Source: Phycisphaerales bacterium (GTDB lineage Bacteria > Planctomycetota > Phycisphaerae > Sedimentisphaerales > UBA12454). From it: a DNA stretch of 64,000 nucleotides. The stretch lies in assembly GCA_003142595.1 (NCBI GenBank), contig PLMU01000011.1:4713-68712 (forward strand). The letters run 5' to 3'. The notes under the pieces are model-generated. The model was not told the DNA's origin. It was given only the letters and a program-made list of their open reading frames with translations, and did no database searches. This document shows, in pieces, positions 45,169 to 60,810 of this stretch (positions within the stretch are counted from its first letter, which is position 1; every line of letters begins with the position of its first letter). A program made the position numbers and the translations under genes.

Positions 45169-45551
45169 ATGCTAATTCCAACCGTTTGCCAGCAGGCATC
45201 TCAATTTTTTTCTACAAATTTGTCGAAAGTAATGAGTGCGAATAATCAGTATTATAATCAATAACCCATTTGTTCAATGTTGCCCGGAATTCAAACGGCG
45301 TTGCAAAATCATTCGGCCAAACTAAGTCTTCCTTTATCGTCTTTCAGTATCAGCATTTGACTTTTGGATTATCATAACTGGTAAATATCTGTTTTATCTC
45401 AACAACTGTTTGCCGTTCGCGCATCATTGATTGGAAAAAAAGCTGCCTATTCGAGCTGTTCAGAAATTGGCTGGCCACTCCAAAATTATGACCAAATTGA
45501 CGAATTTTCGACGAACTTTGCCATTTTTGGCACTTTTTGGGAACGAAACAA

Positions 45552-45581: not shown

Positions 45582-45601
45582 ACAACCGCTTACGATTTTA
45601 T

Positions 45602-45675
45602 GGCGGCGTAGCTCAGTTGGTTAGAGCATGGGATTCATAAGCCCAGGGTCGGCGGTTCGACTCCACCCGCCGCCA
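45602..45675 (+). tRNA. tRNA-Met (CAT anticodon)
   Basis: A 74-base cloverleaf: acceptor GGCGGCG (45602-45608) pairs with CGCCGCC (45668-45674), discriminator A, D-stem GCTC/GAGC, anticodon loop TTCATAA, T-loop TTCGACT. CCA is not encoded. Two imperfect pairs are seen (A-G at the base of the anticodon loop, C-A in the T-stem). CAT could also be tRNA-Ile2 with lysidine, but elongator Met fits best. Confidence 0.88.
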
Positions 45676-45680
45676 TTTTT

Positions 45681-45752
45681 GCCCCCATCGTCTAGCGGCT
45701 AGGACGTCGGGTTCTCAACCCGGCAACAGGAGTTCGATTCTCCTTGGGGGTA
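45681..45752 (+). tRNA. tRNA-Glu (CTC anticodon), attachment site of the island
   Basis: A 72-base cloverleaf: acceptor GCCCCCA with TGGGGGT, anticodon stem CGGG/CCCG, loop TTCTCAA giving anticodon CTC, T-loop TTCGATT. It follows tRNA-Met by five bases on one transcript. Its last 25 bases plus three more are duplicated exactly at 52413-52440. Confidence 0.9.
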
Positions 45753-45755
45753 TTT
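45728..45755 (+). repeat. attL-like direct repeat (3' end of tRNA-Glu)
   Basis: 28 bases identical to 52413-52440. The repeat covers the T-arm and 3' acceptor of tRNA-Glu, the usual crossover region for tyrosine recombinases, and keeps the tRNA intact. Confidence 0.75.
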
Positions 45756-45775
45756 GAGCAGCGGCAAAACGGTCT

Positions 45776-46363
45776 TCACTTAGGCCACAGTATGCTATAA
45801 ATAATTTTCTTGATTGACTGAAGCCAGCCGAAGTCAGCAAAGATGTCAACTACTATCGCCGTAATAACAGCGACAAAAATAGCACTAATAACCGTTAAAA
45901 TAAAATGCGAAGTTTTCTTGAACATCCATCCAGTTACCCTCTTAATTCCCCAGCATTTTGCAGTATCTGCTTTCGGGGTTAATTCTCTCTCAAGGTCTCT
46001 AATCAATTCCATATTGCCCTCAAAGGTGTTCGGGTAATCGCTTATGCGAATAGATAACTTAGGCTCGGACTCCGCAAGTTTAATTAAACGGCTTTTTATA
46101 GGGTGGTCTGGGCCGCCTTCACCGAACCGGTAACGGCTGAAAATAAATTCCCACTTATTCCAAAACCTTTTCAGTAGTGGCACTATTTCCCTAAGCGTTT
46201 TAGCTTTCCAAATAGCCTCTGATTCTTCGCCAAATTCACGAAGCTGCTGCTTGTTTAAGGTGTCAGGGGATGCCCCGAAAGGCAAAGCCGAAAGTCTTTC
46301 ATCTTCAAGAGATTCCCACGTATAAACTCTTTTGGGCTTTTCAGTTTGCTTTTCTTTTTTCAT
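45776..46363 (-). CDS. Unknown protein with C-terminal membrane segment
   Basis: 195 residues. The first ~145 are charged and soluble-looking (ETLEK-rich, with KFWNKWEFIFSRYRFGEGGP). Residues ~148-175 (SHFILTVISAIFVAVITAIV) form one hydrophobic helix, and the end is short and basic. No known domain recognised. It is the first gene inside the island and probably cotranscribed with the gene upstream of it (12-base gap). GGCGGG seven bases before the ATG may serve as the ribosome site. Confidence 0.6.
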   Translation of the reverse strand: MKKEKQTEKPKRVYTWESLEDERLSALPFGASPDTLNKQQLREFGEESEAIWKAKTLREIVPLLKRFWNKWEFIFSRYRFGEGGPDHPIKSRLIKLAESEPKLSIRISDYPNTFEGNMELIRDLERELTPKADTAKCWGIKRVTGWMFKKTSHFILTVISAIFVAVITAIVVDIFADFGWLQSIKKIIYSILWPK

Positions 46364-46375
46364 TTTACCCGCCTT

Positions 46376-46828
46376 TTACCTTATACACAACATTACAACA
46401 ATACTGATAAAAGCTAATATTGCCGCCACTGCTGCCCATATACAAGCCCCTTTAGCAGTAGTAGAGGATTGTTCAGCCGAAACACAAGCATTTACCATAG
46501 TCTCTGTCTGTAATGCGTTATTTATCCCGAATATAAGTTCTGTTATTACTTCTTTTTTAGCCTTGATGTCTTTTTCTCCTATATCTAAAGCAGTTACGTC
46601 TTTTGCGTCAGAATAATATTTTTCGATAAGAAACCAGCCCGTCCCAATACTTGTACTCGCACCAACTTTCTCAGCTAACGATGTAATATCGTTAAGTATA
46701 TTATCTAATTTGCCATTAGCATCTTTTAATCCCTGAGCAGATGACAGTGAAAATCCTTTGATTTCGTTTGACCTATTAACAATCTGCTTTAGGTCATTTT
46801 TATATTTTACAATTTCTTCGTTCGTCAT
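46376..46828 (-). CDS. Unknown small membrane protein
   Basis: 150 residues. The N-terminal two thirds are predicted helical and polar (EIVKYKNDLKQIVNRSNEIK), with one glycine-rich patch (GASTSIGTGWFLIEKYY). The end is a single hydrophobic segment (CIWAAVAAILAFISIVVMLC), so it is probably anchored with its bulk in the cytoplasm or periplasm. AGGTG at the proper distance supports the ATG. No family recognised. It precedes the other anchored island protein on the same strand. Confidence 0.58.
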   Translation of the reverse strand: MTNEEIVKYKNDLKQIVNRSNEIKGFSLSSAQGLKDANGKLDNILNDITSLAEKVGASTSIGTGWFLIEKYYSDAKDVTALDIGEKDIKAKKEVITELIFGINNALQTETMVNACVSAEQSSTTAKGACIWAAVAAILAFISIVVMLCIR

Positions 46829-47167
46829 TTTTCACCTGTCTTTTTTCGGGTCGGTATGGCCTGTAGCAGGTTAGCAGGTGAATACGAACCTTGCCACAGG
46901 TCAAACCGCTTGGCAGGTGTACGGCCTGCCGTCCCGATAAATCTTAGCTTTTACGCTATTTTACCACATAAACCAGTATATCAAAAAACCATTTTTTCTT
47001 GAGAAAACCTTTTAAAGCTTGATATATTCCTGATAAAGTATTCCCAAATGATTAAAATTCGAGTTGCCCATAGGGCTGCCTCGTTCAATAACCATATTGA
47101 ATGGCGAAAAGGCAATTTTGAACGTTCTCAAGCGAAATAAACAAGAAATTCGGAGTTTATTAAGCTA
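46829..47167. other. Intergenic region within the island, no gene seen
   Basis: 339 bases between divergent genes. It contains a GC-rich part with short inverted pieces (46850-46940) and an AT-rich part (46950-47160) that should hold the two divergent promoters. I cannot pin down either promoter. Confidence 0.4.
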
Positions 47168-47443
47168 ATGGACAAAATACCTGAAAAACTCGGTGATATT
47201 CTAATTAGACAATTTACTGACAATCTTCAAAAGGATGGGATAGCTGCCAATACGCGAAAATCATTAGTAACTATTAGATATAACCTTGAGACATACATTA
47301 CACAGATCACAAGAGCGCGTGAATTATTGACAAATAAAGAATTGTGGCTCCCTAATGCCTATCTTGCGAATTTGTTGAATGAGGCCAAAGCAGCCCTTGT
47401 AACAATTGAAAAGCGTCTGGCTGAAGGTGATTATACATACTGA
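47168..47443 (+). CDS. Unknown small helical protein
   Basis: 91 residues, predicted all-helical and soluble (LGDILIRQFTDNLQKDGIAA, then ELWLPNAYLANLLNEAKAAL). No catalytic motif or membrane segment. CGGAG lies about 12 bases before the ATG, a rather long spacing. It is the only longer forward gene in the island and shows no similarity I can recognise. Confidence 0.45.
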   Translation: MDKIPEKLGDILIRQFTDNLQKDGIAANTRKSLVTIRYNLETYITQITRARELLTNKELWLPNAYLANLLNEAKAALVTIEKRLAEGDYTY

Positions 47444-47490
47444 ATTTTTAAGGCTTACGAATACTGTCATAACTTTTTAAGGAGCAAAAA

Positions 47491-47670
47491 ATGCCAGAAT
47501 TAATTGTACCTATGATTATAGGGTCGTCTTTGTGGGATTTTCACTTTGTTCCGTCTGCTGTGTTATTGCTATGCGTATCATCTGTTCCCGTCTTGTTTAA
47601 ATGTAATGCCATCCGCCTTAATTCTGCGCGTTCTTCAGGGGTTAATTTAATAGGCTTTTCGGTTGTCTGA
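47491..47670 (+). CDS. Doubtful 59-residue ORF on the strand opposite a terminase remnant
   Basis: A strong AAGGAG site seven bases before the ATG opens MPELIVPMIIGSSLWDFHF..., a hydrophobic N-terminus. The second part reads the antisense of the duplicated terminase-like segment. The first ~13 codons may be a real gene start that was cut by the arrival of that duplicated segment. Probably not functional. Confidence 0.22.
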   Translation: MPELIVPMIIGSSLWDFHFVPSAVLLLCVSSVPVLFKCNAIRLNSARSSGVNLIGFSVV

Positions 47671-47822
47671 TTGTTGATATTATCAGTGAACATAGCCAGA
47701 TACTTGCCCTGCAATTCAGTGCAGCTTTTTGATACGCTGTATTGGTGATGGTTTCTTGCCATTAGCTTATCATGTTCCAAGTCGGCCAAAACCTTGTCCA
47801 CTGTTATCATATTTCGCTGCAT
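47541..47822 (-). CDS. Truncated terminase small-subunit-like protein
   Basis: 93 residues corresponding to the C-terminal half of a phage terminase small subunit: ITVDKVLADLEHDKLMARNH followed by the ELQGKYLAMFTDN stretch and a polar tail. The tail HLNKTGTDDTHSNN is nearly identical to that of the full-length relative at 51659-52126, and the DNA is ~75-80 percent alike over the last ~150 bases. The N-terminal helix-turn-helix is missing. The frame is open upstream to about 47930 without an ATG, as if the 5' end was deleted when the PEP-CTERM gene arrived. Likely a relic. Confidence 0.5.
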   Translation of the reverse strand: MQRNMITVDKVLADLEHDKLMARNHHQYSVSKSCTELQGKYLAMFTDNINNQTTEKPIKLTPEERAELRRMALHLNKTGTDDTHSNNTADGTK

Positions 47823-47935
47823 ATTTTCTTTGTGTAATTCAAAAATACGTTCAGCAACAGGAAAAGGAAGACACAGGACAAGCGCAGCTTGAATTTTAAA
47901 GTACCACGCCTGTAAAGGCCGTGGGGTATCTATTT

Positions 47936-48814
47936 TTACCGGCGTTTTTGCAATAGAACTATACTACCGATACCAAGAAGACAAAAAGTAACAGGTTCGG
48001 GAACGGGAACGGCTGTAGCCAAATCGCCAATATTTACACCCGCGGGCATAGTTGCTACAGGACCTCCTATGCTCAAGAAAGTCGCTGGGTCAAGTTCATA
48101 AATTTGACCTGTGCCCCCCGGTCCCAGATTACTACCATAGAGCCTGCCATAAACCCATGCAAGGCCTGCATGGTCCGCACCTTCCTCTTTAGTTAGTGTA
48201 TGACTGGTCGGATCCCAGATATAGTTATTAACAGAATCATAGCCGAAAAATACATTGCTCGTGCTTATATAAAGTTTATCATCAGGCCCCCATGCAATGT
48301 CACCTAAGGCGTATCCTTTAATCCCCATAGCGCCACCAATAGGAAGCGTAGCCTGCAGAGTTCTGGCACCTGTTGTTTTATCAATGGTCCAGAGCTGGCC
48401 ACCGGGGTCGTCAGTCAGAGCCAGGAATCCTCCCGAAGCCAGGGGATCGCGGCTTCTCGTTGTATCCATAACCCACAACTTGCCGTTCTTGTCTACATCT
48501 GCATTTTGCTCGGATATATCAGTTGTGCTGATACTTGTATTTATGTTGGTCAGCGGATTCCATTTGCTTATGCCCCGCTGTGTCACTTTATCACAGTTCC
48601 AGTAAAAAAGATTTGTCCCATCAAACGCGATACTTATTGTTGAATAATTTGCCGTAACGCTGACCGGTGTGACACTACCGGTACTTACATCGATATAGTA
48701 TATGCTGTCGTTATTAACGGCCATCGCATACAAAGAAGGAATCGCAGATGCCTGGCTGATATTAGCGATTAGCACAATTACCATAACTGAAACAATAATT
48801 GGTAGTTTTTTCAT
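47936..48814 (-). CDS. PEP-CTERM exported protein, beta-propeller-like
   Basis: 292 residues. A signal peptide (MKKLPIIVSVMVIVLIANIS, cut near ASA) is followed by a domain with repeated beta-strand motifs (GTNLFYWNCDKV, GKLWVMDTT, DKLYISTSN, GRLYGSNLG) that suggests an NHL/propeller-like fold. The C-terminus is a classic PEP-CTERM signal: VPVPEPVTFCLLGIGSIVLL, then basic QKRR. Exosortase would process such proteins for export to the cell surface, but no exosortase gene is in this window. AAGGGG precedes the ATG. It is 28 bases after the second PEP-CTERM gene and probably cotranscribed. Confidence 0.82.
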   Translation of the reverse strand: MKKLPIIVSVMVIVLIANISQASAIPSLYAMAVNNDSIYYIDVSTGSVTPVSVTANYSTISIAFDGTNLFYWNCDKVTQRGISKWNPLTNINTSISTTDISEQNADVDKNGKLWVMDTTRSRDPLASGGFLALTDDPGGQLWTIDKTTGARTLQATLPIGGAMGIKGYALGDIAWGPDDKLYISTSNVFFGYDSVNNYIWDPTSHTLTKEEGADHAGLAWVYGRLYGSNLGPGGTGQIYELDPATFLSIGGPVATMPAGVNIGDLATAVPVPEPVTFCLLGIGSIVLLQKRR

Positions 48815-48842
48815 TTTTCTGTTCCCCTTTTTTGCTTAATAC

Positions 48843-49463
48843 TTAACAATAGTTCCCTCTTCTTTTTTTTCTGCGAATCAGACTCAAAACACCAAGGCCA
48901 AGCAGGCAAATTGTCGCTGGTTCAGGAACTGGCAAAACTGTCATATTTGTGCTGCCTGTAAAACCAGGGGAGGAGAAATTACTGATAGTGTTCGGCGTGA
49001 CGGAAAACGTGATGTCAACCAGTTTGCCTTCCGAACCAAAATCCGGCTGCAGAGTCCCACCTGAAACATTAAAGTAGCCCTGCCCTGCGAACATTCCGGA
49101 ATTATCATATATTTCGGTCAGGTTAAAGGACACGATTGTGCCTGAAAGCAGCACATTAGAACCAGCGTCCATATAGGAGAAGGACCCGCCGGCAAAATCT
49201 CCGCTGGCTATACCGCTGGATGAATTATCGCTCATAAGGGTCGTATTCAGACTGAACTGGGCGTTGCCATACGTGTTCACAAAACCTGATAAATACTCGC
49301 AATTGATTCCACCCACGCCATTCATAGTCAACACACTGCCGATACCGCCCCCGAACGATGTTCCTACATTAGTTGCGCTCATCGATTTTATCGGCTCTGC
49401 CTGAACCATCGAACCTGCTGCTATCAGCGCCACAGCAAAAATGATTAAAAATTTTCTTATCAT
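48843..49463 (-). CDS. PEP-CTERM exported protein
   Basis: 206 residues. It has an N-terminal signal peptide (IIFAVALIAAGSMVQA), a Gly/Ser/Asn-rich beta domain (SMSATNVGTSFGGGIGSVLT) and a C-terminal sorting tail LPVPEPATICLLGLGVLSLI followed by RRKKRR. Function is unknown; such proteins are cell-surface or matrix components. A 65-bp direct repeat pair lies in the leader (49505-49678). First gene of a two-gene unit with the next PEP-CTERM gene. Confidence 0.8.
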   Translation of the reverse strand: MIRKFLIIFAVALIAAGSMVQAEPIKSMSATNVGTSFGGGIGSVLTMNGVGGINCEYLSGFVNTYGNAQFSLNTTLMSDNSSSGIASGDFAGGSFSYMDAGSNVLLSGTIVSFNLTEIYDNSGMFAGQGYFNVSGGTLQPDFGSEGKLVDITFSVTPNTISNFSSPGFTGSTNMTVLPVPEPATICLLGLGVLSLIRRKKRRGNYC

Positions 49464-49504
49464 ACTGTTTGTACCTCACTTTCTATATTAAAGTTATTCT
49501 TTCA

Positions 49505-49678
49505 CGCTTTAAAAAAGCGCACAAACTCTCTACGAATTACTTCTCTCCGGATCAAAAACAAAAGACTTGCTTTAAAACAATGCTGCAAACCACAAAGACA
49601 TTTATTATTTTTATCGCTTTAAAAAAAAGCGCGCAAACTCTCCGCAAATAACTTCTCTCCGGGTTAAAAAAAGACTTG
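49505..49678 (-). repeat. Pair of ~65-bp direct repeats upstream of a PEP-CTERM gene
   Basis: Copies at 49505-49569 and 49615-49678 share a GCTTTAAAA hairpin-forming part, CAAACTCTC and ACTTCTCTCCGG blocks and end in GACTTG. They lie in the untranslated leader of the gene at 48843-49463. They could be a regulatory RNA/DNA element repeated twice. Nothing codes between 49464 and 49880. Confidence 0.6.
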
Positions 49679-49882
49679 TGCAAACCAATACAGAAAAAGG
49701 AAACCAGAACGCGAAACCCAATGTAACAAGCTTATTCTGACTGGTTAACTAACTTCCCTACCCCATTCTGATAGGTATTGTATCACAACGGGAATAGAAA
49801 TGCAAGAGAAAAAACCGCTTTATTAAAGATTTTTATCATTCCTTTCCTTTGAAAGTCGGGATGTTTTCGAAGATTTACACAC

Positions 49883-49915
49883 AAAAATAGGGCCAGTCTG
49901 GTGACTGACCGGCCC
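49883..49915 (-). terminator. Terminator after the PEP-CTERM pseudogene
   Basis: GGGCC/GGCCC and AGTC/GACT pairs form a stem with a four-base bulge around a TGGT loop. On the minus strand it is followed by a T-rich run. It lies 31 bases downstream of the pseudogene stop. Confidence 0.55.
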
Positions 49916-49946
49916 CATCTGAATGACAAAAGTCCTTTAGAGGAAC

Positions 49947-50407
49947 TTATTTTCTGCATTTTATCTTCATAGAGATAAATAAACCAACTGTGAGCAATAC
50001 AGTTTCAGCAGGTTCAGAAACTGCTGATGAAGTAAACGACGCTGTAGCGGTAAATCCATCGCCGCCGGTTTGGAACTGGGCGATGGCGGCAAAACTGAAA
50101 GAGAATTTCTCCAATGAAATGGTATCTGCAATTTAGGAGCCTGTAATTATGACATTTTGAATGACAAAATCATCACACCCCAGACTTTGCCGCGATACAA
50201 AGACATCACTAAAACTAATACTCACCAAAGGCGTCGTCGATCCCGAGTGGTCATCCGCATAGAACCTAATCTGTCCGGAACCTGTCTTGCTGTATGTGAC
50301 GTCCCACACCATCTAAGTCTCAACTATACCTATCTGATCCATCCTGAACCATGCGTTGTCAAAAGTACTGTCGCCATATGGTATTTGGAAAGTCAAACCT
50401 GGCTTTC
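49947..50407 (-). pseudogene. PEP-CTERM protein pseudogene with two in-frame stops
   Basis: A single reading frame on the minus strand runs from about 50407 to the stop at 49947-49949, interrupted by TAG at 50313-50315 and TAA at 50133-50135. All pieces stay in one frame. Conceptual translation gives beta-rich pieces (DNAWFRMDQIGIVET; TGSGQIRFYADDHSGSTT; DDFVIQNVIITGS; KFSFSFAAIAQFQTGGDGF) and the sorting tail AVSEPAETVLLTVGLF followed by KIKCRK. The 5' part with a start codon and signal peptide is absent. A terminator follows. Stop-codon recoding is possible but less likely than decay. Confidence 0.65.
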
Positions 50408-50417
50408 CAAATACCAT
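50378..50417. repeat. Perfect 15-bp inverted repeat at the pseudogene/outer-membrane gene junction
   Basis: Bases 50378-50392 and 50403-50417 are exact reverse complements around a 10-base loop. It lies 11 bases downstream of the outer-membrane protein gene. There is no T-run after it, so it is either a rearrangement scar or an atypical terminator. Confidence 0.6.
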
Positions 50418-50428
50418 CTACGAAGCCT

Positions 50429-51286
50429 TTAAAATTTCCAGGTAAGATTCATTGCTAAGGCATCGGCAGAAGGTGTATGCTGATATTCAATACAGTAGAA
50501 AACGCTCTTGGTTAATTTTACCTCACTGCCGATATAGAGGCCAAATTGTCTCAAATTGTCAATATCATAAGAAGATTTGGTGATTCTGTGGACATCCTGT
50601 TCTGTAGTCTCTTCTCTACTGCCAGAAATATCGCTGGAGCCAAAATTAGCATAGTGCCAGAATGGACCGCCATAGATTGAGACTTTTTCCGTGAGGTGGT
50701 AGGTTGGACCTACCGCAATTTGCATTTCAGTTAACTTCAATTTAGCAGTTTCTGAAACGTCCTCTCCACCTCTCATACCATGAAATCTGGCTGTGGACTC
50801 AGCCCAGCTTATTTGGAATAATGCACCAATCTCCAATTTATCCTTATTGTAGAAAGTCTTTTTTGTTCCAAAGCCGTATGCAAAACCTGCGTCACCATCG
50901 TAATTTCTCGCTGAGGCACTTGAACCTGTTGGGAACAAATTGTCGCTCCAATCAGCGCTCATTCCTCCCAGTCGCACAAAAACTTCCCAGTCGTCTGTTA
51001 TACCATAACCAATATTGCCGTAAACTTTGTCCATATCCAATTTGACCTTGAATGGTGCAACTTTGCTTGAACTTTCACTAAATACCCCGTCAAGAACAAT
51101 TGTAGTCACTGTTTCGTACCCATCCATTTTTAGTTTCATTCTGGTGTGTGAGTAATCAGCCCCTAAACCGAACTTTCCCTTACTCAGACCAGCCGTAGGC
51201 GGGCCCATTGGATCCAGCGCAAAAGCTGCTGAGCCAATCAGACCAACCAACACAAAAACGATAATTAACAGTAATTTCTTTTGCAT
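50429..51286 (-). CDS. Outer-membrane beta-barrel-like protein
   Basis: 285 residues. A signal peptide (MQKKLLLIIVFVLVGLIGSA, cut after AFA) is followed by alternating hydrophobic/polar strands with Gly and aromatic residues (KFGLGADYSHTRMKLKMDGY, DWEVFVRLGGMSADW, FGLYIGSEVKLTKSVFYCIE) and ends with LTWKF. A terminal aromatic residue is the BAM recognition signal of outer-membrane barrels. The ATG at 51286 is preferred over 51301 because AAGGTG lies six bases upstream. Possibly a small porin or assembly marker; exact role unknown. Confidence 0.7.
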   Translation of the reverse strand: MQKKLLLIIVFVLVGLIGSAAFALDPMGPPTAGLSKGKFGLGADYSHTRMKLKMDGYETVTTIVLDGVFSESSSKVAPFKVKLDMDKVYGNIGYGITDDWEVFVRLGGMSADWSDNLFPTGSSASARNYDGDAGFAYGFGTKKTFYNKDKLEIGALFQISWAESTARFHGMRGGEDVSETAKLKLTEMQIAVGPTYHLTEKVSIYGGPFWHYANFGSSDISGSREETTEQDVHRITKSSYDIDNLRQFGLYIGSEVKLTKSVFYCIEYQHTPSADALAMNLTWKF

Positions 51287-51301
51287 AATCACACCTTTCA
51301 T

Positions 51302-51424
51302 ATGGGAACAATTTCAAACAAAAAACCGTGTTTTTTCTAAATTTTTTATCGGTGCTTTTTCAATAGAACTATATTACTGATTCCATGGGAACAATTTCAA
51401 GCAAAAAATCGTGTTTTTTACTAA
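51302..51424 (-). repeat. Two ~40-bp direct repeats flanking a PEP-CTERM tail remnant
   Basis: Copies at 51302-51340 and 51385-51424 differ at few positions. Between them (51346-51384, minus strand) lies a decayed coding end reading GISNIVLLKKHR then stop, clearly related to the tail GIGSIVLLQKRR of the protein at 47936. The arrangement marks a deletion or duplication in the PEP-CTERM cluster. A GC-rich hairpin (51438-51457) follows. No gene in 51425-51658. Confidence 0.55.
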
Positions 51425-51658
51425 TTTCTCGGGAGTCCCCCGCCTGTGAAGGCGGGGCTTGAATGTTAAATTTTGTTAAGTTTATTGCCTATAAAAAACT
51501 GTAGTTTTCTGTAAATTCTAAATGTTATCTTTTATTAGTATTTTAAAAACGGATTCAACGTGTCCACAATTCAAAAAATGATATATCTTTCTTGGCAGCC
51601 TATTGCTTTCAAGACCGGCGGCGGGTCTGGGGGCGTTAGGGTCGTCTTTAGGGGATTT

Positions 51659-52126
51659 TCACTTTGTTCCGTCTGCTGCGTTATTGCTATGCGTATCGTC
51701 AGTACCAGTCTTATTTAAGTGTATGGCCATACGTCTAAGCTCTTCACGGTCTTCATCGGTTAATTTAATAGGCTCTGGAGTATTATTGTTGTTGATATTG
51801 TCCGTAAAATCGGCTTCAGACTTGCCTAATAATTCTGAAGCTCTTAACCTGTCCGGCAATGGTTTGCCAGTATCGTTCATAATCTGCGTCCAAAACTCCT
51901 GCCGCTGCTGTCTTGTCGCTATGTCGCAGGGTCTTATCTCAGTTTCCTGCCGTTTTTTGATAAGTTCTAAAATGTTGCTTTTTGTAGCCAGTCGGCGGCA
52001 ATATTGATATGTTAATCCAGCTTTTTCAGCCGCTTCTTTGATATTACCCGCAAAACAATCAACAAACTTCTGCTGCTTCAGGGTAAGGTTTCTCGTAACT
52101 GGTTTAAGTGTTTCTGTTTCGTTCAT
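51659..52126 (-). CDS. Terminase small-subunit-like protein
   Basis: 155 residues. LTLKQQKFVDCFAGNIKEAA and EKAGLTYQYCRRLATKSNIL form the helix-turn-helix DNA-binding domain of phage terminase small subunits. PLPDRLRASELLGKSEADFT is the usual C-terminal motif, and a polar tail follows. It would recognise packaging sites on phage DNA. The ATG at 52126 (GGAG 12 bases upstream) is preferred to 52156. No large terminase, portal or capsid gene is nearby. A truncated relative lies at 47541. Confidence 0.68.
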   Translation of the reverse strand: MNETETLKPVTRNLTLKQQKFVDCFAGNIKEAAEKAGLTYQYCRRLATKSNILELIKKRQETEIRPCDIATRQQRQEFWTQIMNDTGKPLPDRLRASELLGKSEADFTDNINNNNTPEPIKLTDEDREELRRMAIHLNKTGTDDTHSNNAADGTK

Positions 52127-52412
52127 AATCAATTCTCCATAAATTTTATCGCCCATTAATTCTCCAAAGCCGTGAGAAAATATGCTTCTGGCGAGAAACG
52201 GTCTTTGAATGCGTCTTTGTAGAAATTTATACTCCTCTCTCCCTTATCAATGCTATAATCTCTGTTTGATATGTTCCGACAGGTTCGGCCAAGCGAAAAT
52301 TACCTGCTCAATTTCGGGGTGATTTTGCAGGAGTTTACACAAACTGGCACACAAATCAGCCTCTTGACTTTTTATAAGTTCTTTGTTATTAAATGGTTCT
52401 GTGTTTTCCTTA

Positions 52413-52440
52413 AGGAGTTCGATTCTCCTTGGGGGTATTT
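52413..52440 (+). repeat. attR-like direct repeat
   Basis: An exact copy of the 3' end of tRNA-Glu (45728-45755), 38 bases before tadA. The spacer 52157-52412 has no gene I can support, although a forward frame open across 52271-52440 could be the relic tail of a lost gene. Confidence 0.75.
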
Positions 52441-52477
52441 TTTATCGAATCGAACAACAAATTTCCTCTTAAACAAA

Positions 52478-52954
52478 ATGGATGAAAAACAAGACCAGCA
52501 ATTTATGCGAGCGGCAATCGACCAGGCTTATATCGCCCTGGAAAATGATGATGTGCCGGTCGGAGCGGTCATAGTTCACCAAAATCAAATTATCGCCAAA
52601 GGCTGCAATCAGCGGCATCAACTCAACGACCCAACGGCTCATGCGGAAATTATCGCGCTTACGGCCGCGGCCGAGCATATCGGCCACTGGCGATTGCATA
52701 ACTGCACGATTTATGTTACACTTGAGCCCTGCTCAATGTGCGCAGGGGCACTTGTCCTTGCGAGAATCGAAAGATTAGTTTTCGGCTGCGACGACCCCAA
52801 AACGGGCGCCTGCGGCAGTTTGTATAATATCGTGCAGGACAAACGGCTAAACCATAGAGTCGAAATAACCAAGGGTGTTCTGGCTGAAGACTGCTCAAAA
52901 ATTCTGCAGGACTTCTTCCGTGTAAAAAGAGAACGAAGCGATAACGAGTTTTAA
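52478..52954 (+). CDS. tadA: tRNA-specific adenosine deaminase TadA
   Basis: 158 residues. The zinc-dependent deaminase motifs are complete: [12 protein letters not shown] with the catalytic Glu, and [20 protein letters not shown] with both zinc Cys. It converts A34 of tRNA-Arg(ACG) to inosine. The frame continues upstream to 52271, but the ATG at 52478 matches the family N-terminus ([20 protein letters not shown]). It lies between the island end and tRNA-Ser. Confidence 0.9.
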
Positions 52955-53082: not shown

Positions 53083-53654
53083 TTTTTTCTTTATCCACCA
53101 AAATAACGTTCATAAATTATTATAACTCAGGCAGTTGCGGATTGTTGCTTATTTTAGACTCCTCCGTTGCCATTAAGTTGCCCTTAGTTTGGTCAAATAT
53201 ATCGAAGAAATGGATGATGCCGATAGGGCAGTGGAAGGCTGCCTTGAGCCAGTTTTCGATTAGATTTGCCGACGGATTTGAACTGTAGGAAAAAGGAGCC
53301 CGTTTTCAGCGGAACTGATTTGTTGAGTTTATCGCTTATAAGCCAAAACAGAAAAAGCTCCGGCAGCGATAACATATGCGGGGGTTTTCTGTTCCGGCAT
53401 CGGCCTGACGCTCGGGTTGCTCTCCAGCAGAGCCTTATCCTTCAGAGCGATATGGACAAACTAAGGGAAATGAACTATAATAAGAGTAAATTGGAGCTGC
53501 GTAGCGTATTACGCAGCGAATCGTTAAGGCCATTTATACAGTTAAATGAACAGACCCGCAGGATAAGTTATAACTCTCGCCAGCTTTTTCAAGACCAATT
53601 TCATTGCCTATATCTAAGATTTTACACTATTTAATTACCTACAAATGTTCTCTA

Positions 53655-53760
53655 AACGTGTTTGAATATATGCAGCGATATTTTGATTATTACAACAATC
53701 ATCGTTCGCACAGCAACCTGGGCTATCGAATACCGTCGGAGGTATACTTCGAAGGACACG
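53655..53760 (+). pseudogene. IS3-family transposase OrfB fragment
   Basis: About 35 codons in frame read NVFEYMQRYFDYYNNHRSHS and then NLGYRIPSEVYF, the C-terminal motif of IS3/IS2-type integrase domains. The catalytic core is missing upstream. It differs from the intact IS at 17430, so it comes from another element. The rest of the gap 53083-53960 contains short open frames without recognisable content, probably decayed DNA. Confidence 0.65.
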
Positions 53761-53960
53761 ATTCGCTTTGCCCCGCTTATATAAAGCAAAAATTGGTCTT
53801 GACAATGGGTACCACAGAAACAGCACTGCATCAGGACTACAAGTTAAATACCCTTTATGAAATTCAAATTACAGCTACCGAATTTCTAAGGATTTCTGAA
53901 GTCCGGATTGCCGATGCCCAAGGGAAACAATAGGCGAACAGTTCTGTCTTTTGTGATTGC

Positions 53961-54021: not shown

Positions 54022-57000
54022 TTAGTTTGACAAGCTTGCTATGGGGCCAATCTTGGATTTTCCGAGCTGAGCCTGAATATACATATAGATGTTTTCATTT
54101 TCAGCCTTAGTTAGATTGCTGCCGTATTTTTCAAGAACAAAAGCTGTAGAGTCTCCTACTGGCGCGCCCAGTTCGGTATCGAGTACTTTTGCGTACTCAA
54201 CGAAAGCATCAACATATTCCATTGCAGTTGCGTATTGCGGCATATCAGGATTGTTTTTATAGTCGGCAAACGCATTGGCTATCATTGCTCCCATTTCAGG
54301 AGAATACGGTGTATTGGCAGGTGCAAGCTGGTTAAAGACCTGAACCATAGCGGCCATGTGCTGGCCTTGCGAGTCTTTGAGGATGCCAGCATAGTTTACG
54401 ACCTTTTTACAAGCCTCACAAGGTTGCGTATCCGGAGTGTCGGTAAGAGAATTTCCAATCGCGACCTGGATGTCTGCGGGATTGATTCCAAGCTCCATAG
54501 CAACAGCACCCATCAGTTCGGGACATCCCGATATCTCCGGCAATCTTATGACAGGCAAAGGTGCCGCCGATAATATTGGTTTGATTTCTTCTGCAGTTAC
54601 AGTAACTGTAACAGTGCCATTACCATACTCAGGAACCACGCTGCTGATCTCACCATTCACAAACATATATTTATTCTGGCCATCCCATACATTGATAGTA
54701 AACTCTTCGCTGCCTACATAGCCTTGTGCCGGTGTATAAATCCACTTAGTGCCGTCAAATTCAAGTTTGCCGCCGGCTGAACCGTTATAAGTACCAATTA
54801 TATGACTTAGAGTATCGAGACCATTATCCTGGTCAACAACGCCTACAGGTTTGCTAACTCCATTTTGGGTTACTGTAAGAGCGGTTCCCTCCGGTGTACT
54901 TCCAAGATCGCCACTGCCGGTCGGTAAAGTATCGGTTATTGCAACTTTCAGTGTTCCGGTACGAACAACAGGGGTTGCTGTAGCACTTACTATGCTTTTA
55001 TCGTTAACTGTATACTCAAAGCTGTCCGGCGTACCTCCAGTAACATAACCATCAAGAGGATGGTAGGTTACGATATTTCCGGAGATGCTTGGGGTGCCAG
55101 TGTGAGGAGTAGGGCCATCACCCAGACCCAGCACTAAGTCCTCAGGCGAACCATCGATATCCGTTATTATTGGATTAGTACCCAAAACGAATTTAGCATC
55201 CGGTGCGCCATTCGTAGTTGTTACCATATGGATCGTAGTGTCAGCATTACCTGGTACAGGCAGGAAGTTTGTAACGTCGATCGTCACCTTTGCGATATTT
55301 GTAGAATGTATCGTTACGCCATTTACCACTTTTTCGGCTTGGTATGTAAAGGTGTCAGTGTAAATCGCTGGATTAACAGGATTGCCAGCCGCATCAACAA
55401 TGCCATCCCATACGAATACAGCACCTTTTGGTGGGGTATATATGAATCCCTGTATGGCACCACCATGGTCATCCGTTCCAATTACTCCCAATGTCCATTT
55501 GCCGCCGCCTTGGGTTGCATTGATAATTTCACCATTATAAAGCCGCAATAGACTATCATCATTTGCCAGCACATCGACAGGATGATCCTCTGTACTCCAA
55601 CTTATGGTATCGAAATCATCTGCTATCAAGAAGTTCTGCGGCACAAGAACCCATGCCCTGCCATCGGTAATGACCGGATTTCTACTAGGATCAAGACCGG
55701 CACCACGCAATATGTATGCATAGCCAGGCGGGAAAGGTAAAGGATTACCGTTAAGTATATCAAGTGCATAAGGCAGACGTCCGACGGCACCTTCAAGCCA
55801 TTCTGTTATACGAGAGCATACTTCCAGTCTGTCACCAACATTACCGCTTGCTAATGAGGCTTCAAACGGACCACCGGGGACTCCGCCATCAAAAGTTACA
55901 TTTGTCTTTGCATCGATGACCATTGCTCCCTTTGGTACAAGCTCGCATTGCGGTTCTACTGCCACAGCAGCCATAATCTGTCCTTGTTGCCCAATAGGCT
56001 CCTCAATAGGCTTGCAGGACATAATTGAAACTGGTGCACTGACATCTACATCGCCGTTCAGACTCGCAACATAAATCGCTAAATCAAACGGGACGCCCTG
56101 ATTTCTTGGGTATGCGCCCGGCAGCGGAATATCAGCAGGAACATCAAGGAAATCGATAGCTGCACGGTCATCAACATCATCATAGTACTTTCCATAAGCA
56201 TGCAACTGGGCACCTGAGCCTATATTCAGGCTCTCATGACTCATAATCACAATTGCCGCCCTCGGAACTAATCCGCCGCCTTCAACTGCAAATGGGTCAT
56301 AATCTTTGCCATATATTCCGGCATCATAAATGCCGGTTTGAGCGGAATGGTTGGAACTGCCTTTTATGGAAACATTAATTGTATCGTCGGCACCACCACT
56401 TGTGTAAATCTTGCCGTTCTTAGAATAAACGGCCACGCCGCCGGTAGGCCTGCACCAATCATCGCCGTCGTCAAATGTCGTCAGGTCACCGCTGATTTGA
56501 ACGTCGCCCTGACCAATAATCCACAGGTTGCCCAGACAAGTGCTTGCAGCAGGCTGCCCATCAGTACTATTATGGCGGAGGTCCACAGCAAAGGTCGGCG
56601 AACCGCCAATCAGCCACATATCGCCTTCGGTAACCTTGTGGATAAAGCCTTGAGCGGTAAGTGTGCCAGTCTGGGCTTTTATTGTTTGTGTGTCAGAACC
56701 GTTAACGACGGTATTATCGTTCAGTGAAACATTCCCATAGGCGATTACATCGCCGCCAAGATAAGTCGTACTATCCGATGAATAAATATTGATGCTGCCC
56801 TTTGTCGAAGTAAGATCACTCTTGGCTATCATATCACTGCCAGCGTTCAAAGTCATGTCCTGAACAGTCGTCACAGCACCGCCAAGGATAACATTGTGAC
56901 CTGCCTGTACTGTCAAATTACCAAGACCATCCAACGTCTTGCCATCTGCCAGAATCGCATCATGGCCGGCATCAATTATCACACCGTCATCTGCGACTGT

Positions 57001-60000
57001 TTTGTTGTTGAGATAAATATCACTGCCTGCTTTTACGTCAGCTGGCGCAAACATATCAGCAGACTTGTGTATGTTAATAGTTGAATCGCCCGCTGTCATA
57101 TTAATCGTGCCGACTGCTACAAGTCCATTAACATTAAGATTACCAGTGCCGTCATTGTCTAAATCAGCGTTCAGGGTCATATCACCACCAGCGGTGGCAA
57201 TATCCTGAAGATTAATAGATTCGTCTGCGGAAACCTCCATTTTGCCAGTCTGTGCCATTAATGTACTATAAGCATTTATATAGCTATTACCATATATAAG
57301 TGCATCAGCCTTCAAAATCAAGTCAGTGTGTGCGTCAACAGCACCGGATAAATTGATGTACCAATCGGAAAAAACATCTATCTTGCCAGTCTGGGCCGTT
57401 AATGTACTATAAGCATTTATATGGCTGTCATCATATGTAAGTGCATCGGCCTTCAAAATCAAGTCAGTGTATGCGTCAACAGCACCGTATAACTTTATGT
57501 ACCAATCGGAAAAAACATCTATCTTGCCATCTTCAGATGTAAGGGGACCATAAGCATTAACATGACCCATGTCGCCACCGCTTACACCGCTTACCAGGAT
57601 ATCATTCTTGGCTTTTACTGCACCATCAAGGTCAACTCCAACGCCCGAGATATCAATTTTACCACCCATATTAGTTATTGTGCTCTTGGCATGTATATTG
57701 CCAATACTGTCCGTATCCGCGTCAGCATCAATTTTTAAATCTCCATTTGTAACAACTGATGTTGTTACAGCTCCTCCGAGAGTAATGTCTCGGTCAGCTT
57801 CAACAGTCAGGGCACCGTTACCAGTTAGGGTCTTGCCGTCTGCCAGAATAACATCATGACCAGCATCAATTATCACGCCATCATCCGCTATCGTGTTGTT
57901 ATGTAATGTAATATCTCCAACGGCTGTATCATTGCCGTGCAGATAGGTCGTAAAATCTGACGAATATATGTCTATATTTCTGCCTGCATTTAAGACATCG
58001 GCATGTACATCCTTGCCGGCTGTTAAGGTTATATTTTTTGCTGCTGTCGCCTTATCATGCAGATATATGCTCCCATTAGAAGTATAAGGTTCCGTGCCAC
58101 CTGTGAAAGTCGGACCTGTTACAGATGGAGTTCCGTTAAAGCCATCTGCTGTAATTGTAATACCGCCGCCTGAAGTAAGTTCACCGGTAACATCAACATC
58201 GCCACCAGCAATAATCTGATCTCCAGGATGGCTTAACTTCCACAGCCCATGAGCATAAAGTGTCATATCGTGACCAGACTGTGCACCTTGGAGATAAACG
58301 TTAGTGCCTTCAATATACATTGTTCCAACAGCATCCAGGAAACCATGAGCAACTACATTATTGCCCCAATAGTTGTCTGTATCGGCATGAAGCGTCATAT
58401 CTCCACCGGAACTGATATTTTGGGCATCAATACCATGTTTTGCCTCAATATCAACGTTGCCCTTATCAGCCGTTATATCTTTGCCGGCTATTACGTTATA
58501 ACCGGCCGTTACGCCTATGTTGCCATTCTTGGCCCACAGCGACTTGGTTGCATCTGTACCGCTATTACCTAAAGTTATGCTGCCGCCGTTACCGACAAGA
58601 GTAATGTTTTGATTCGCTGTCGCACCTATTGAATGCCATTTATCTGCGGCATTTGCTAATTTTGTTTCATCTGCTGTAACAGAGCTATTATCGCTGATCA
58701 GCGTAAGGTCTGTGTTTGTTTGATTGGCAAAGGTATAGTTCTTCAAATTCAAATCCAGTCCCTGATGCATTGTCAGTGTGCTGCCCGTAACGCTTATAAC
58801 AGTGTCCGGAGCAACTATCTCGTTACCGGCCCACAACGTCAGAGCATGCGTGCCGGTCAATACCGAGCAATATCCCGGATATCCAATAGGATCAGTTGCT
58901 GTTCCTCCATTTTGGAGAAGGATATTTTTGCCGGCTTTAAGCGTTATACCATTGCCTGTATATGTGTCGTTGAAAAGCGAAAGATTACCACTTACGGCGG
59001 TAACATCGCCATCCAAAGTTATCGTACCTGGATAATAGTTATCCTCATAATATCCTGTATCTGAAATCACAATATCGCCGCCTGCAGTGAGAGTTTTCTT
59101 GGCCCATACATTGCCCCAGTCCGGAGTAGTGTCAGACTCGCATTGCCTGCCTGTTATGGTTATATCTTTGCCGGCTGTTACGGTATCGCCGAACACAATG
59201 TCATTACCCGAAATCTGTATATTGCCGCCCGCACTGAGAGGGGCGTTGGAATACATAAAATCATGTTCATCTTTAGGTGCGGATATGATGTGATCCTTAT
59301 CAGCAATGATATCCATATCGCCGCCGGTTTGAATAGTACCGTTTATGATGATATAATCCTTGGCATTCAGTGCAATTTTCCCGTTGCCGGTATTAGTGAT
59401 TGGAGCACCAGCCTCTACCTCTATGTAAGTTCCTGCGTTAAATGTTAGGGTTCTTGGACTGTTATAGATTAGATCGTTCATGACTTTGATCCAACCACCC
59501 GTAGTAGCCAGCGTGACATCGGTTGTATTACCATTAAGAAGATTTGCCAACTCCCCTGTATTCCAATTCCAATTTGAACCAGAAAAATCGTTGCCGCTAA
59601 TGCTTATCGACAAGTTAGTTGGGTCTATCAAAAACATACCCGTTTCACCATGAGGTGCTCGTGTATCAACAGCTGGAATTGATGACAGTGATGTCTTGGC
59701 GGAGACCTCGACAAAACCGCCATTACCGGACAGGCTTCCGCCTTTGGCTTCAACTACTGCGCCATCGTGGAAAAGTGCAGTATCGGGCGAATATATGATG
59801 ACTTCGCCGCCGTTGCCGTTTGTCCCGGCATTTGCAGTGGTCCTGCTATCGGAGCCAAGAGCAACCATATCGCCGGCAGTTAAACTAACACTACCGCTAC
59901 CGGCATTGATCGTGCCAAGCTGGGCAACCCGACCGTTACCACCATCAACTTTAACCGCTTTGGTATCAGTATTCATGGCGGCCGAGTAAATATCGCCTGC

Positions 60001-60810
60001 AGCTAATACGATTTGTCCACCGGGCGATGTAATGCTGCCAGTAGTATTATTAGTAACACTGCCGGTACCTTCTATATTCGAAGTGGAAGAGGCCATTTCG
60101 ACAATGATCTTGCTTCCCGGCTGGCCGAGAACAACTTTATCTCCCGCGGCCATTACTACTACATATCCGCCATTGCTGGTTACAATTGCTCCGTTGTTGA
60201 GTATTTTTTGGCCAATCAGTGCGACACCTTCGGTGCCGGTAATTGTGCCATTGTTGATTATGCCGATTTGCTGGCTGGGATTAATGCCGGGAATACCGCC
60301 TTCGAAGTTGAACTGGCCTGTATTGATGCCGTTTAGGAAGTCGGCATCGGTAATGTTCAAGCTTGAAGCTATCAATTGATTGACATTCACCGATGAGCCG
60401 GCTCCGAACAGAACACCGGCCGGGTTGATAATAAACACTCGTCCGTTTGCATTCAATGTTCCCATAATGCCAGTTGGGTTACCATCGAATACTCTGTTGA
60501 GCATTGCCGCGGAGGCAGAAGCCTGATTAATGTTAACAGTTGCAGCAGAACCGATGTCAAAGTTCTTCCAGTTAACGACCGCCCCGTTCTGCACGTTATT
60601 AATGGTTAGTTTATTCAGTACTGTACGGTCAAAATTCCCTGCACCAACAGTTGTCCCCGGCAAAATTCCGTTTGGCAGTGCATTACTGGCCGGATTTACA
60701 TCGGCCCAGCAGGTGAACGGTACTGTCGCAAATATCGCCCACACAGCCAGGAAATACATAATTGCCTGTCTTACATGGTATGTTCTGTAAAGTCTTTTTG
60801 TCGTCTTCAT
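54022..60810 (-). CDS. Two-partner secretion exoprotein TpsA (filamentous haemagglutinin-like)
   Basis: 2262 residues. A long signal peptide ends near residue 36 (VPFTCWADVNPA). The TPS domain follows (to ~residue 260), with NGRVFIINPAGVLFGAGSSV corresponding to the conserved NPNG(I/L) motif recognised by the TpsB POTRA domains. A long beta-helix of degenerate ~20-residue repeats (GG/AGKDI/LTAGG units) fills ~270-1480, with two 47-residue tandem units near 1095-1188. Cadherin/Ig-like modules (VDVLANDDSLLRLYNG, GSTPEGTALTVTQNG) occupy ~1830-2120, and the last ~120 residues are helical. It is a surface adhesin or matrix fibre. The gene follows tpsB by 86 bases. Confidence 0.88.
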   Translation of the reverse strand: MKTTKRLYRTYHVRQAIMYFLAVWAIFATVPFTCWADVNPASNALPNGILPGTTVGAGNFDRTVLNKLTINNVQNGAVVNWKNFDIGSAATVNINQASASAAMLNRVFDGNPTGIMGTLNANGRVFIINPAGVLFGAGSSVNVNQLIASSLNITDADFLNGINTGQFNFEGGIPGINPSQQIGIINNGTITGTEGVALIGQKILNNGAIVTSNGGYVVVMAAGDKVVLGQPGSKIIVEMASSTSNIEGTGSVTNNTTGSITSPGGQIVLAAGDIYSAAMNTDTKAVKVDGGNGRVAQLGTINAGSGSVSLTAGDMVALGSDSRTTANAGTNGNGGEVIIYSPDTALFHDGAVVEAKGGSLSGNGGFVEVSAKTSLSSIPAVDTRAPHGETGMFLIDPTNLSISISGNDFSGSNWNWNTGELANLLNGNTTDVTLATTGGWIKVMNDLIYNSPRTLTFNAGTYIEVEAGAPITNTGNGKIALNAKDYIIINGTIQTGGDMDIIADKDHIISAPKDEHDFMYSNAPLSAGGNIQISGNDIVFGDTVTAGKDITITGRQCESDTTPDWGNVWAKKTLTAGGDIVISDTGYYEDNYYPGTITLDGDVTAVSGNLSLFNDTYTGNGITLKAGKNILLQNGGTATDPIGYPGYCSVLTGTHALTLWAGNEIVAPDTVISVTGSTLTMHQGLDLNLKNYTFANQTNTDLTLISDNSSVTADETKLANAADKWHSIGATANQNITLVGNGGSITLGNSGTDATKSLWAKNGNIGVTAGYNVIAGKDITADKGNVDIEAKHGIDAQNISSGGDMTLHADTDNYWGNNVVAHGFLDAVGTMYIEGTNVYLQGAQSGHDMTLYAHGLWKLSHPGDQIIAGGDVDVTGELTSGGGITITADGFNGTPSVTGPTFTGGTEPYTSNGSIYLHDKATAAKNITLTAGKDVHADVLNAGRNIDIYSSDFTTYLHGNDTAVGDITLHNNTIADDGVIIDAGHDVILADGKTLTGNGALTVEADRDITLGGAVTTSVVTNGDLKIDADADTDSIGNIHAKSTITNMGGKIDISGVGVDLDGAVKAKNDILVSGVSGGDMGHVNAYGPLTSEDGKIDVFSDWYIKLYGAVDAYTDLILKADALTYDDSHINAYSTLTAQTGKIDVFSDWYINLSGAVDAHTDLILKADALIYGNSYINAYSTLMAQTGKMEVSADESINLQDIATAGGDMTLNADLDNDGTGNLNVNGLVAVGTINMTAGDSTINIHKSADMFAPADVKAGSDIYLNNKTVADDGVIIDAGHDAILADGKTLDGLGNLTVQAGHNVILGGAVTTVQDMTLNAGSDMIAKSDLTSTKGSINIYSSDSTTYLGGDVIAYGNVSLNDNTVVNGSDTQTIKAQTGTLTAQGFIHKVTEGDMWLIGGSPTFAVDLRHNSTDGQPAASTCLGNLWIIGQGDVQISGDLTTFDDGDDWCRPTGGVAVYSKNGKIYTSGGADDTINVSIKGSSNHSAQTGIYDAGIYGKDYDPFAVEGGGLVPRAAIVIMSHESLNIGSGAQLHAYGKYYDDVDDRAAIDFLDVPADIPLPGAYPRNQGVPFDLAIYVASLNGDVDVSAPVSIMSCKPIEEPIGQQGQIMAAVAVEPQCELVPKGAMVIDAKTNVTFDGGVPGGPFEASLASGNVGDRLEVCSRITEWLEGAVGRLPYALDILNGNPLPFPPGYAYILRGAGLDPSRNPVITDGRAWVLVPQNFLIADDFDTISWSTEDHPVDVLANDDSLLRLYNGEIINATQGGGKWTLGVIGTDDHGGAIQGFIYTPPKGAVFVWDGIVDAAGNPVNPAIYTDTFTYQAEKVVNGVTIHSTNIAKVTIDVTNFLPVPGNADTTIHMVTTTNGAPDAKFVLGTNPIITDIDGSPEDLVLGLGDGPTPHTGTPSISGNIVTYHPLDGYVTGGTPDSFEYTVNDKSIVSATATPVVRTGTLKVAITDTLPTGSGDLGSTPEGTALTVTQNGVSKPVGVVDQDNGLDTLSHIIGTYNGSAGGKLEFDGTKWIYTPAQGYVGSEEFTINVWDGQNKYMFVNGEISSVVPEYGNGTVTVTVTAEEIKPILSAAPLPVIRLPEISGCPELMGAVAMELGINPADIQVAIGNSLTDTPDTQPCEACKKVVNYAGILKDSQGQHMAAMVQVFNQLAPANTPYSPEMGAMIANAFADYKNNPDMPQYATAMEYVDAFVEYAKVLDTELGAPVGDSTAFVLEKYGSNLTKAENENIYMYIQAQLGKSKIGPIASLSN
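57242..57523 (-). repeat. 141-bp tandem repeats inside tpsA
   Basis: Two near-identical units (57242-57382 and 57383-57523), with the start of a third, more divergent unit at 57524. Each encodes 47 residues (VFSDWYI...LILKADAL...NAYSTL). They expand the beta-helix and are a likely site of length variation by recombination or slippage. Confidence 0.75.

Follow-up and report, generated by a model that had tools for sequence, protein, structure and literature searches.

We analysed a 64,000-nucleotide stretch of a Phycisphaerales bacterium genome (contig PLMU01000011.1 of assembly GCA_003142595.1; hereafter the window), in which a 6.7-kb island lies between a tRNA-Glu(CTC) gene and tadA. The island is very probably a decayed, and probably stranded, member of a group of small integrative elements of the Sedimentisphaerales that target tRNA and transfer-messenger RNA (tmRNA) genes and carry their own attachment site (attP) inside the integrase gene. 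This reading is built on features legible in the DNA itself, namely the flanking repeats, the empty site in relatives, a severed integrase tail, an arm-type site and the continuity of the integrase frame across the attachment (att) core.

Boundaries of the island and its severed integrase tail

Repeat searches delimit the island by two exact 28-bp direct repeats (AGGAGTTCGATTCTCCTTGGGGGTATTT), the attL core at 45728-45755 (+) and the attR core at 52413-52440 (+), 6,685 bp apart. The left copy comprises the final 26 bases of the target, tRNA-Glu(CTC) (45680-45753, +; ARAGORN), plus two more, and the gene is left intact. An earlier sequence-only reading of this DNA had described such exact repeats at tRNA-Glu, which holds, and had put the right copy 38 bases before tadA (52478-52954, +), which needs correcting to 37 bases (ATG at 52478). 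That the repeat might recur at many unrelated places, which would have spoken against that reading, did not prove to be the case: only two copies with at most 3 mismatches occur in the window (0 expected from 100 shuffles), and a 22-bp part, allowing at most 2 mismatches, has only two sites in the whole 2.28-Mb host genome, a draft of 18 contigs.

The gene order of the window is tRNA-Met (45601-45676, +; ARAGORN), tRNA-Glu, island, tadA and tRNA-Ser. In two genomes of the same genus, G006 (locus L016) and G003 (L015), tRNA-Met, tRNA-Glu(CTC) and tadA are consecutive, with about 50-100 bp between tRNA-Glu and tadA and no island; the G003 TadA protein is 93% identical to that of the window. Beyond the genus, the uninterrupted tRNA-Glu-tadA neighbourhood is present in G011 (L024), from the same family, and in two further genomes of the order, G018 (L028) and G134 (L109), and tRNA-Met is the conserved left neighbour in L015, L016, L024 and L028. 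Directly 5' of tadA, the DNA of the window resembles that of G006, which supports the interpretation that the right flank is native and that the island is an insertion within the genus. The comparison with relatives that the sequence-only reading had called for thus yields an empty site, and the close relatives lack both the island genes and the second repeat there, instead of carrying the genes without the repeat. With the unique exact repeats, this bears out the proposal of a mobile element integrated at tRNA-Glu between true att repeats.

No catalytic integrase domain was found in the island, the six PF00589 hits of the host genome all lying on other contigs, and neither hidden Markov model (HMM) nor six-frame BLAST searches for an integrase remnant inside the island body returned anything significant. 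The earlier statement that no recombinase is visible is therefore correct for the catalytic domain, but the far end of the island does encode an integrase C-terminus, together with one arm-type site. When the island was searched with the element proteins of relatives, the minus strand from 52438 to 52256 matched the far-end open reading frame (ORF) of an element in the same-genus genome G004 (37% identity over 76 amino acids, E 2e-12). This severed C-terminal module (52256-52441, -) reads out of the att core; in the window as in G004 the tail ORF starts inside the core, and its frame is the one that the integrase, or its expected remnant, uses to read the near core. The window tail meets an early stop at 52256 (HIKQRL) and continues in another frame (12 residues, not shown), and must accordingly be regarded as a pseudogene. 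At the other end, positions 45756-45775 (-) may tentatively be taken for the last codons of the lost integrase before the core, judging from a by-eye likeness to the 3' end of the G045 integrase.

Within the severed module, at 52335-52355 (-), lies a putative arm-type integrase binding site (TTTGTGTGCCAGTTTGTGTAA) that is identical at 21 of 21 positions to the pair in the G004 element; no copy exists at the left end of the island. This identity ties the island to the specificity of the G004 integrase and, with the far-end tail, allows the responsible integrase family to be named. The six PF00589 hits of the host genome include integrases at tRNA-Lys, tmRNA and tRNA-Ala, one fragment without a tRNA, and two proteins of 314 and 346 amino acids that are presumably Xer. 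A helper integrase at tRNA-Glu, for which the sequence-only reading had suggested searching the host genome, was not found among the six.

Two other observations concern integrase-like peptides. An in-frame peptide 5' of tRNA-Met (45446-45510, +; LPIRAVQKLAGHSKIMTK) is similar to the motif at the C-terminus of the integrase (E 0.005, from a small search) and may be what remains of a further lost integrase, on the opposite side of the tRNA pair. In locus L229, a 384-amino-acid integrase ORF (5232, -) has a module-like motif (LQEIFERWDMLSEHIKAAI) near its N-terminus and not its C-terminus; the hit, a candidate fusion of integrase and module, was set aside for this reason.

An attachment site within the integrase gene

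The G004 element shows that the same attachment site is used within the genus by an element with an intact integrase. Its 27-bp repeats of the same tRNA-Glu(CTC) 3' end are 15.3 kb apart, and a homologue of the island's small membrane protein P2 lies 19 bp upstream of a 454-amino-acid tyrosine integrase that runs into the tRNA-Glu(CTC) 3' end. The integrase ends in ISIPSRGVEPLLPA and the far ORF reads LPSRGVEPLQGNDEP onward; integrase end and far ORF are similarly arranged in the tRNA-Lys element of the window's own genome. Loci were fetched with up to 20 kb, and in seven of them the far att was present along with a complete tRNA or tmRNA gene: tRNA-Glu(TTC) twice, tRNA-Asn, tRNA-Lys, the tRNA-Glu(CTC) of G004, a tmRNA and the window, which alone has no integrase.

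In all six intact elements the integrase frame that passes through the near att continues in the far-att module, a conserved stretch of about 50-85 amino acids. The probability of this result by chance is 1/729 for all six, and 1/81 for the four elements that are independent of the tail profile used to find the module. Joining the two parts at the core lengthens the six integrases from 443-484 to 508-537 amino acids in the reconstructed circle forms. In the joined G004 enzyme (536 amino acids) PF00589 covers residues 206-383, and residue 451 is the last before the split. Integrase tail, core and module also occur as one continuous frame in G002 (E 1e-10) and in G005 (84% over 89 amino acids), the latter at the element's outer edge, as a tandem neighbour would leave it.

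Each of the six cores is flanked by a direct repeat of 19-39 bp that scores above all 200 shuffles. The first copy ends 76-139 nt before the core, within the integrase gene, and the second starts 75-97 nt after the core start, within the module. Cross-comparison revealed the repeats to be element-specific, with overlap limited to two pairs, G004 with G005 and G045 with G093. From their position, we infer that they are arm sites bound by the integrase.

Of the order's 161 genomes, 87 have a match to the tail profile, usually in a short ORF that stands alone, and the module, which corresponds to no Pfam family, occurs in 75 of 392 sampled genomes of the phylum, many of these matches being weak and limited to its second half. 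A perfect tRNA T-arm lies just upstream of 21 of 48 unique tail ORFs, compared to 8 of 2,650 control windows, which were chosen at random and slightly smaller.

The intact members examined measure 6.3-15.3 kb. Their usual, though variable, set, with family names taken from annotation, consists of the integrase, a small helix-turn-helix (HTH) protein, a DnaD/replication-like gene, a small Cys-rich protein, an excisionase-like HTH protein and cargo, and an HTH or terminase small subunit (TerS) gene adjoins the module at the far end. Two of them reside in the window's own genome, a 7.9-kb element at tRNA-Lys(CTT) with an Eco57I-type restriction-modification gene (C15, L088) and an 8.3-kb element at tmRNA (C16, L087 and L152). 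The G004 element also carries restriction-modification genes, assigned to type I from reading the ORFs. We additionally observed two tandem elements at tRNA-Met in G051 (L045, 6204-16358). The first, of 6.6 kb, encodes an integrase, an excisionase, TerS, a DnaD-like loader and a head-maturation protease, and no further head or tail genes were recognised in it; the second opens with an integrase of its own at the first's far att, and one of its genes reads like a rolling-circle replication protein.

We propose that in the excised circle the integrase gene would run through attP and encode an enzyme of about 508-537 amino acids. Integration cuts the gene at the core and thereby swaps the C-terminus of the enzyme: the catalytic part stays beside the tRNA, ending in a few tRNA-antisense codons (443-484 amino acids), and the last 50-85 codons are carried to the far att along with the second arm-type site. 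Since the catalytic domain lies well before the split, the short integrase may still cut DNA, unlike the archaeal suicidal integrases discussed below. Long and short forms might differ in activity and switch between integration and excision. The window element would have entered tRNA-Glu(CTC) by means of an integrase that shared the G004 enzyme's specificity for core and arm; later, its catalytic gene and left arm would have been lost and the severed tail frameshifted, with two TerS genes, one of them truncated, and surface-protein cargo remaining. The island can probably no longer move, because it has no integrase, one arm is missing and no matching integrase is present in the genome.

Several points weigh against this interpretation. 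Two of the six in-frame elements also contributed to the tail profile, leaving four independent cases; the window element has kept tail and arm but lost the integrase body whose frame the tail would have continued; the genomes examined, all of them drafts, yielded no excised circle and no full-length integrase free of interruption, and a scan of viral contigs with the joined protein gave no circle form. Substitutions in the module are near saturation, with nonsynonymous rates (dN) of 0.33-0.78 and synonymous rates (dS) of 0.68-4.9, which makes selection at the protein level only moderately supported, and part of the conservation of the module may be that of the arm site. On balance, we nevertheless lean toward the view that the Planctomycetota harbour a large class of tyrosine integrases whose C-terminal module is removed by integration and restored by excision, a built-in directionality switch present in over half of the genomes sampled from one order, and that the window island is a fossil of this class known solely by its severed tail.

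Gene content of the island and alternative origins

The gene nearest tRNA-Glu encodes P1 (45776-46363, -), a 195-amino-acid C-terminal transmembrane protein that occupies the position of the integrase in relatives and has C-terminal homologues in G056 and G030. It is followed by P2 (46376-46828, -), a 150-amino-acid small C-terminal membrane protein whose homologues in G004 and G067 lie immediately upstream of integrases that target tRNA genes. P2-type proteins occur in 14 of the 161 genomes of the order (loci including L081, L115 and L117); in G009 the gene lies 134 bp from tRNA-Glu(TTC), its 3' end toward the tRNA. The possibility that P2 forms mini-islands beside tRNA-Glu(TTC), each bounded by an att of its own, was dropped, as a second repeat was not found, and neither P1 nor P2 matched a known defence gene in PADLOC. 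The 91-amino-acid ORF P3 (47168-47443, +) has no significant match, a Pfam similarity to an N-terminal integrase domain (E 0.089) not being accepted.

The surface-protein genes noticed in the sequence-only reading are confirmed by Pfam: a DUF6923/PEP-CTERM surface protein (47936-48814, -), a PEP-CTERM protein (48843-49463, -) and an outer-membrane beta-barrel protein (PF13505; 50429-51301, -) with homologues elsewhere in relatives. ORF fragments at 49947-50312 (-) represent a degenerate PEP-CTERM gene in pieces (33% over 52 amino acids to its neighbour). A 52-nt repeat (79%; 47933-47984 and 51343-51394) corresponds to PEP-CTERM tail coding sequence, and its second copy seems to be all that is left of another such gene. 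Outside the island, an ORF at 53604-53933 (+) containing FDYYNNHRSHSNLGYRIPSEVYF looks like the end of an IS3-type transposase; it sits between tRNA-Ser and a gene for a 2,262-amino-acid filamentous haemagglutinin-like protein (54022-60810, -).

The phage-like gene of the earlier reading is equally real. TerS (165 amino acids; 51659-52156, -), beside the integrase tail, matches phrog_51 (E 1.6e-8), and a second copy (47541-47963, -), truncated to its C-terminal half and open to 47963, is related to the TerS of the same-genus element L046 (33% over 96 amino acids, E 2e-11). A 199-nt repeat (77%; 47519-47717 and 51637-51835) spans the C-terminal tail of both genes, with 11, 8 and 26 differences at first, second and third codon positions. 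Such an excess of third-position changes is expected for a gene once under selection, and the tail seems to have been selected in both copies. A tandem insertion, with a third, decayed att between the TerS copies, was rejected, the best internal match being 18/28 against a background of 16/28. The TerS homologues are true phage genes: several viral contigs, and two prophage-like loci as well, have a large terminase-type gene directly after them, and the terminase-type genes of G114, G097 and L130 are mutually homologous.

The adjoining terminase large subunit in these close homologues, and a decayed TerS locus beside tRNA-Ser(GCT) in G047, could suggest that the island is the remnant of a full prophage and TerS a leftover of its head gene block. 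We regard this origin as possible though rather unlikely. No remnant of a large subunit is present in the island, intact elements with this integrase family span 6-15 kb, and TerS occupies the same far-end slot by the module as the TerS of the small intact G093 element (phrog_2538, E 1.7e-13). The shared slot favours a satellite-like ancestor over a full prophage, without being decisive, and we infer that the ancestor was of this kind.

That the island is still a working phage satellite, borrowing the integrase and capsid of a helper, is improbable. Its small size would fit, as would TerS in the absence of terminase large subunit, head (capsid) and tail genes, none of which was found in the island; intact relatives with TerS-like genes likewise have no structural genes in the ORFs examined. 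However, the integrase and the left arm are lost, the tail is frameshifted, one TerS is truncated and a PEP-CTERM gene is broken, all of which favours the decay, and not the helper dependence, that the sequence-only reading had offered as its two options; helper dependence is further weakened by the want of a tRNA-Glu integrase among the genome's six hits and of the left arm site that such an enzyme would need. Nor was a replication, excisionase or regulator gene recognised in the island.

We give as little credence to a view that would make the far-end module an ordinary small gene in its own right, agreeing in frame with the integrase by coincidence. The module is indeed a separate ORF when integrated, and no full-length fused integrase was seen in the genomes examined; yet the frames agree in six of six cases, two loci have integrase tail and module in continuity, the module ORFs begin in tRNA-antisense codons, and paired arm repeats lie on both sides of the core. 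Least credible of all, even given a draft assembly, is the idea that an assembly artefact or a tRNA-like fragment arising by chance accounts for the repeats, since the right copy comes with just the tail and arm that a far att should have, and relatives show matching flanks on both sides.

Comparison with known integrative systems

Like phage-inducible chromosomal islands (PICIs) and other TerS-carrying satellites, the intact relatives are small and tRNA-targeted, with an integrase, regulators, a replication-like gene, accessory genes, in certain members a TerS-like gene, and no recognised structural genes. The window island shares with PICIs TerS unaccompanied by large subunit, capsid or tail genes; unlike them, it has no integrase, regulator or replication gene of its own, all three being present in the intact relatives.

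Islander-type islands are defined by an intact tRNA gene and a displaced 3' fragment in the right orientation (PMC4383910). The window island conforms in that an intact tRNA gene and a same-orientation displaced fragment bound foreign DNA at a site that is empty in relatives, but in place of an integrase ORF it contains only the severed C-terminal module, and without a catalytic integrase it would not pass the Islander filter. Integrases extending across attP are already provided for in Islander. In practice, the severed tail can serve as a marker for the far end of such islands, including integrase-less ones missed by island finders, and in the window it turns a recombinase-less island into one with a known integrase family.

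An attachment site inside the integrase gene has been described for very few integrative elements (PMC4701971), and we found no description of such elements in Planctomycetota in the open-access papers searched. Self-disrupting integrases were called exclusively archaeal in a review of the SSV-type "suicidal" enzymes, whose gene contains the target and is split by integration (PMC8371274). In SSV-type integrases the N- and C-terminal parts are separated and the catalytic domain is cut off, whereas here, as the joined G004 enzyme illustrates, the catalytic domain stays whole with the N-terminal part and the tail alone is severed. Streptococcal integrative and conjugative elements with a rumA-specific serine integrase also have att in the integrase gene, their integrated and excised forms differing at the C-terminus (PMC4701971); those elements are conjugative and target rumA, while the enzymes described here are tyrosine integrases.

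A close parallel is the Myxococcus phage Mx8, whose tyrosine integrase gene contains attP in its coding sequence and in which integration replaces 112 C-terminal residues by 13, altering activity (PMC4701971, PMC6070905). The Sedimentisphaerales elements share both attP within the integrase gene and the replaced C-terminus, and the passage of the integrase frame through attP into the far end is found in all six intact relatives. Mx8, however, is a 49.5-kbp phage, whereas here many small elements occupy many tRNA genes and tmRNA, the replaced tail is a conserved module, and putative arm sites on either side of the core fall within the frame that encodes the integrase; a change in activity, as reported for Mx8, is presumed here. 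Elements at several different tRNA genes and at tmRNA share the placement of attP within the integrase gene and combine it with a removable, conserved module and putative arm sites in coding sequence, which makes the question of whether integration changes the enzyme and its direction testable across many natural pairs.

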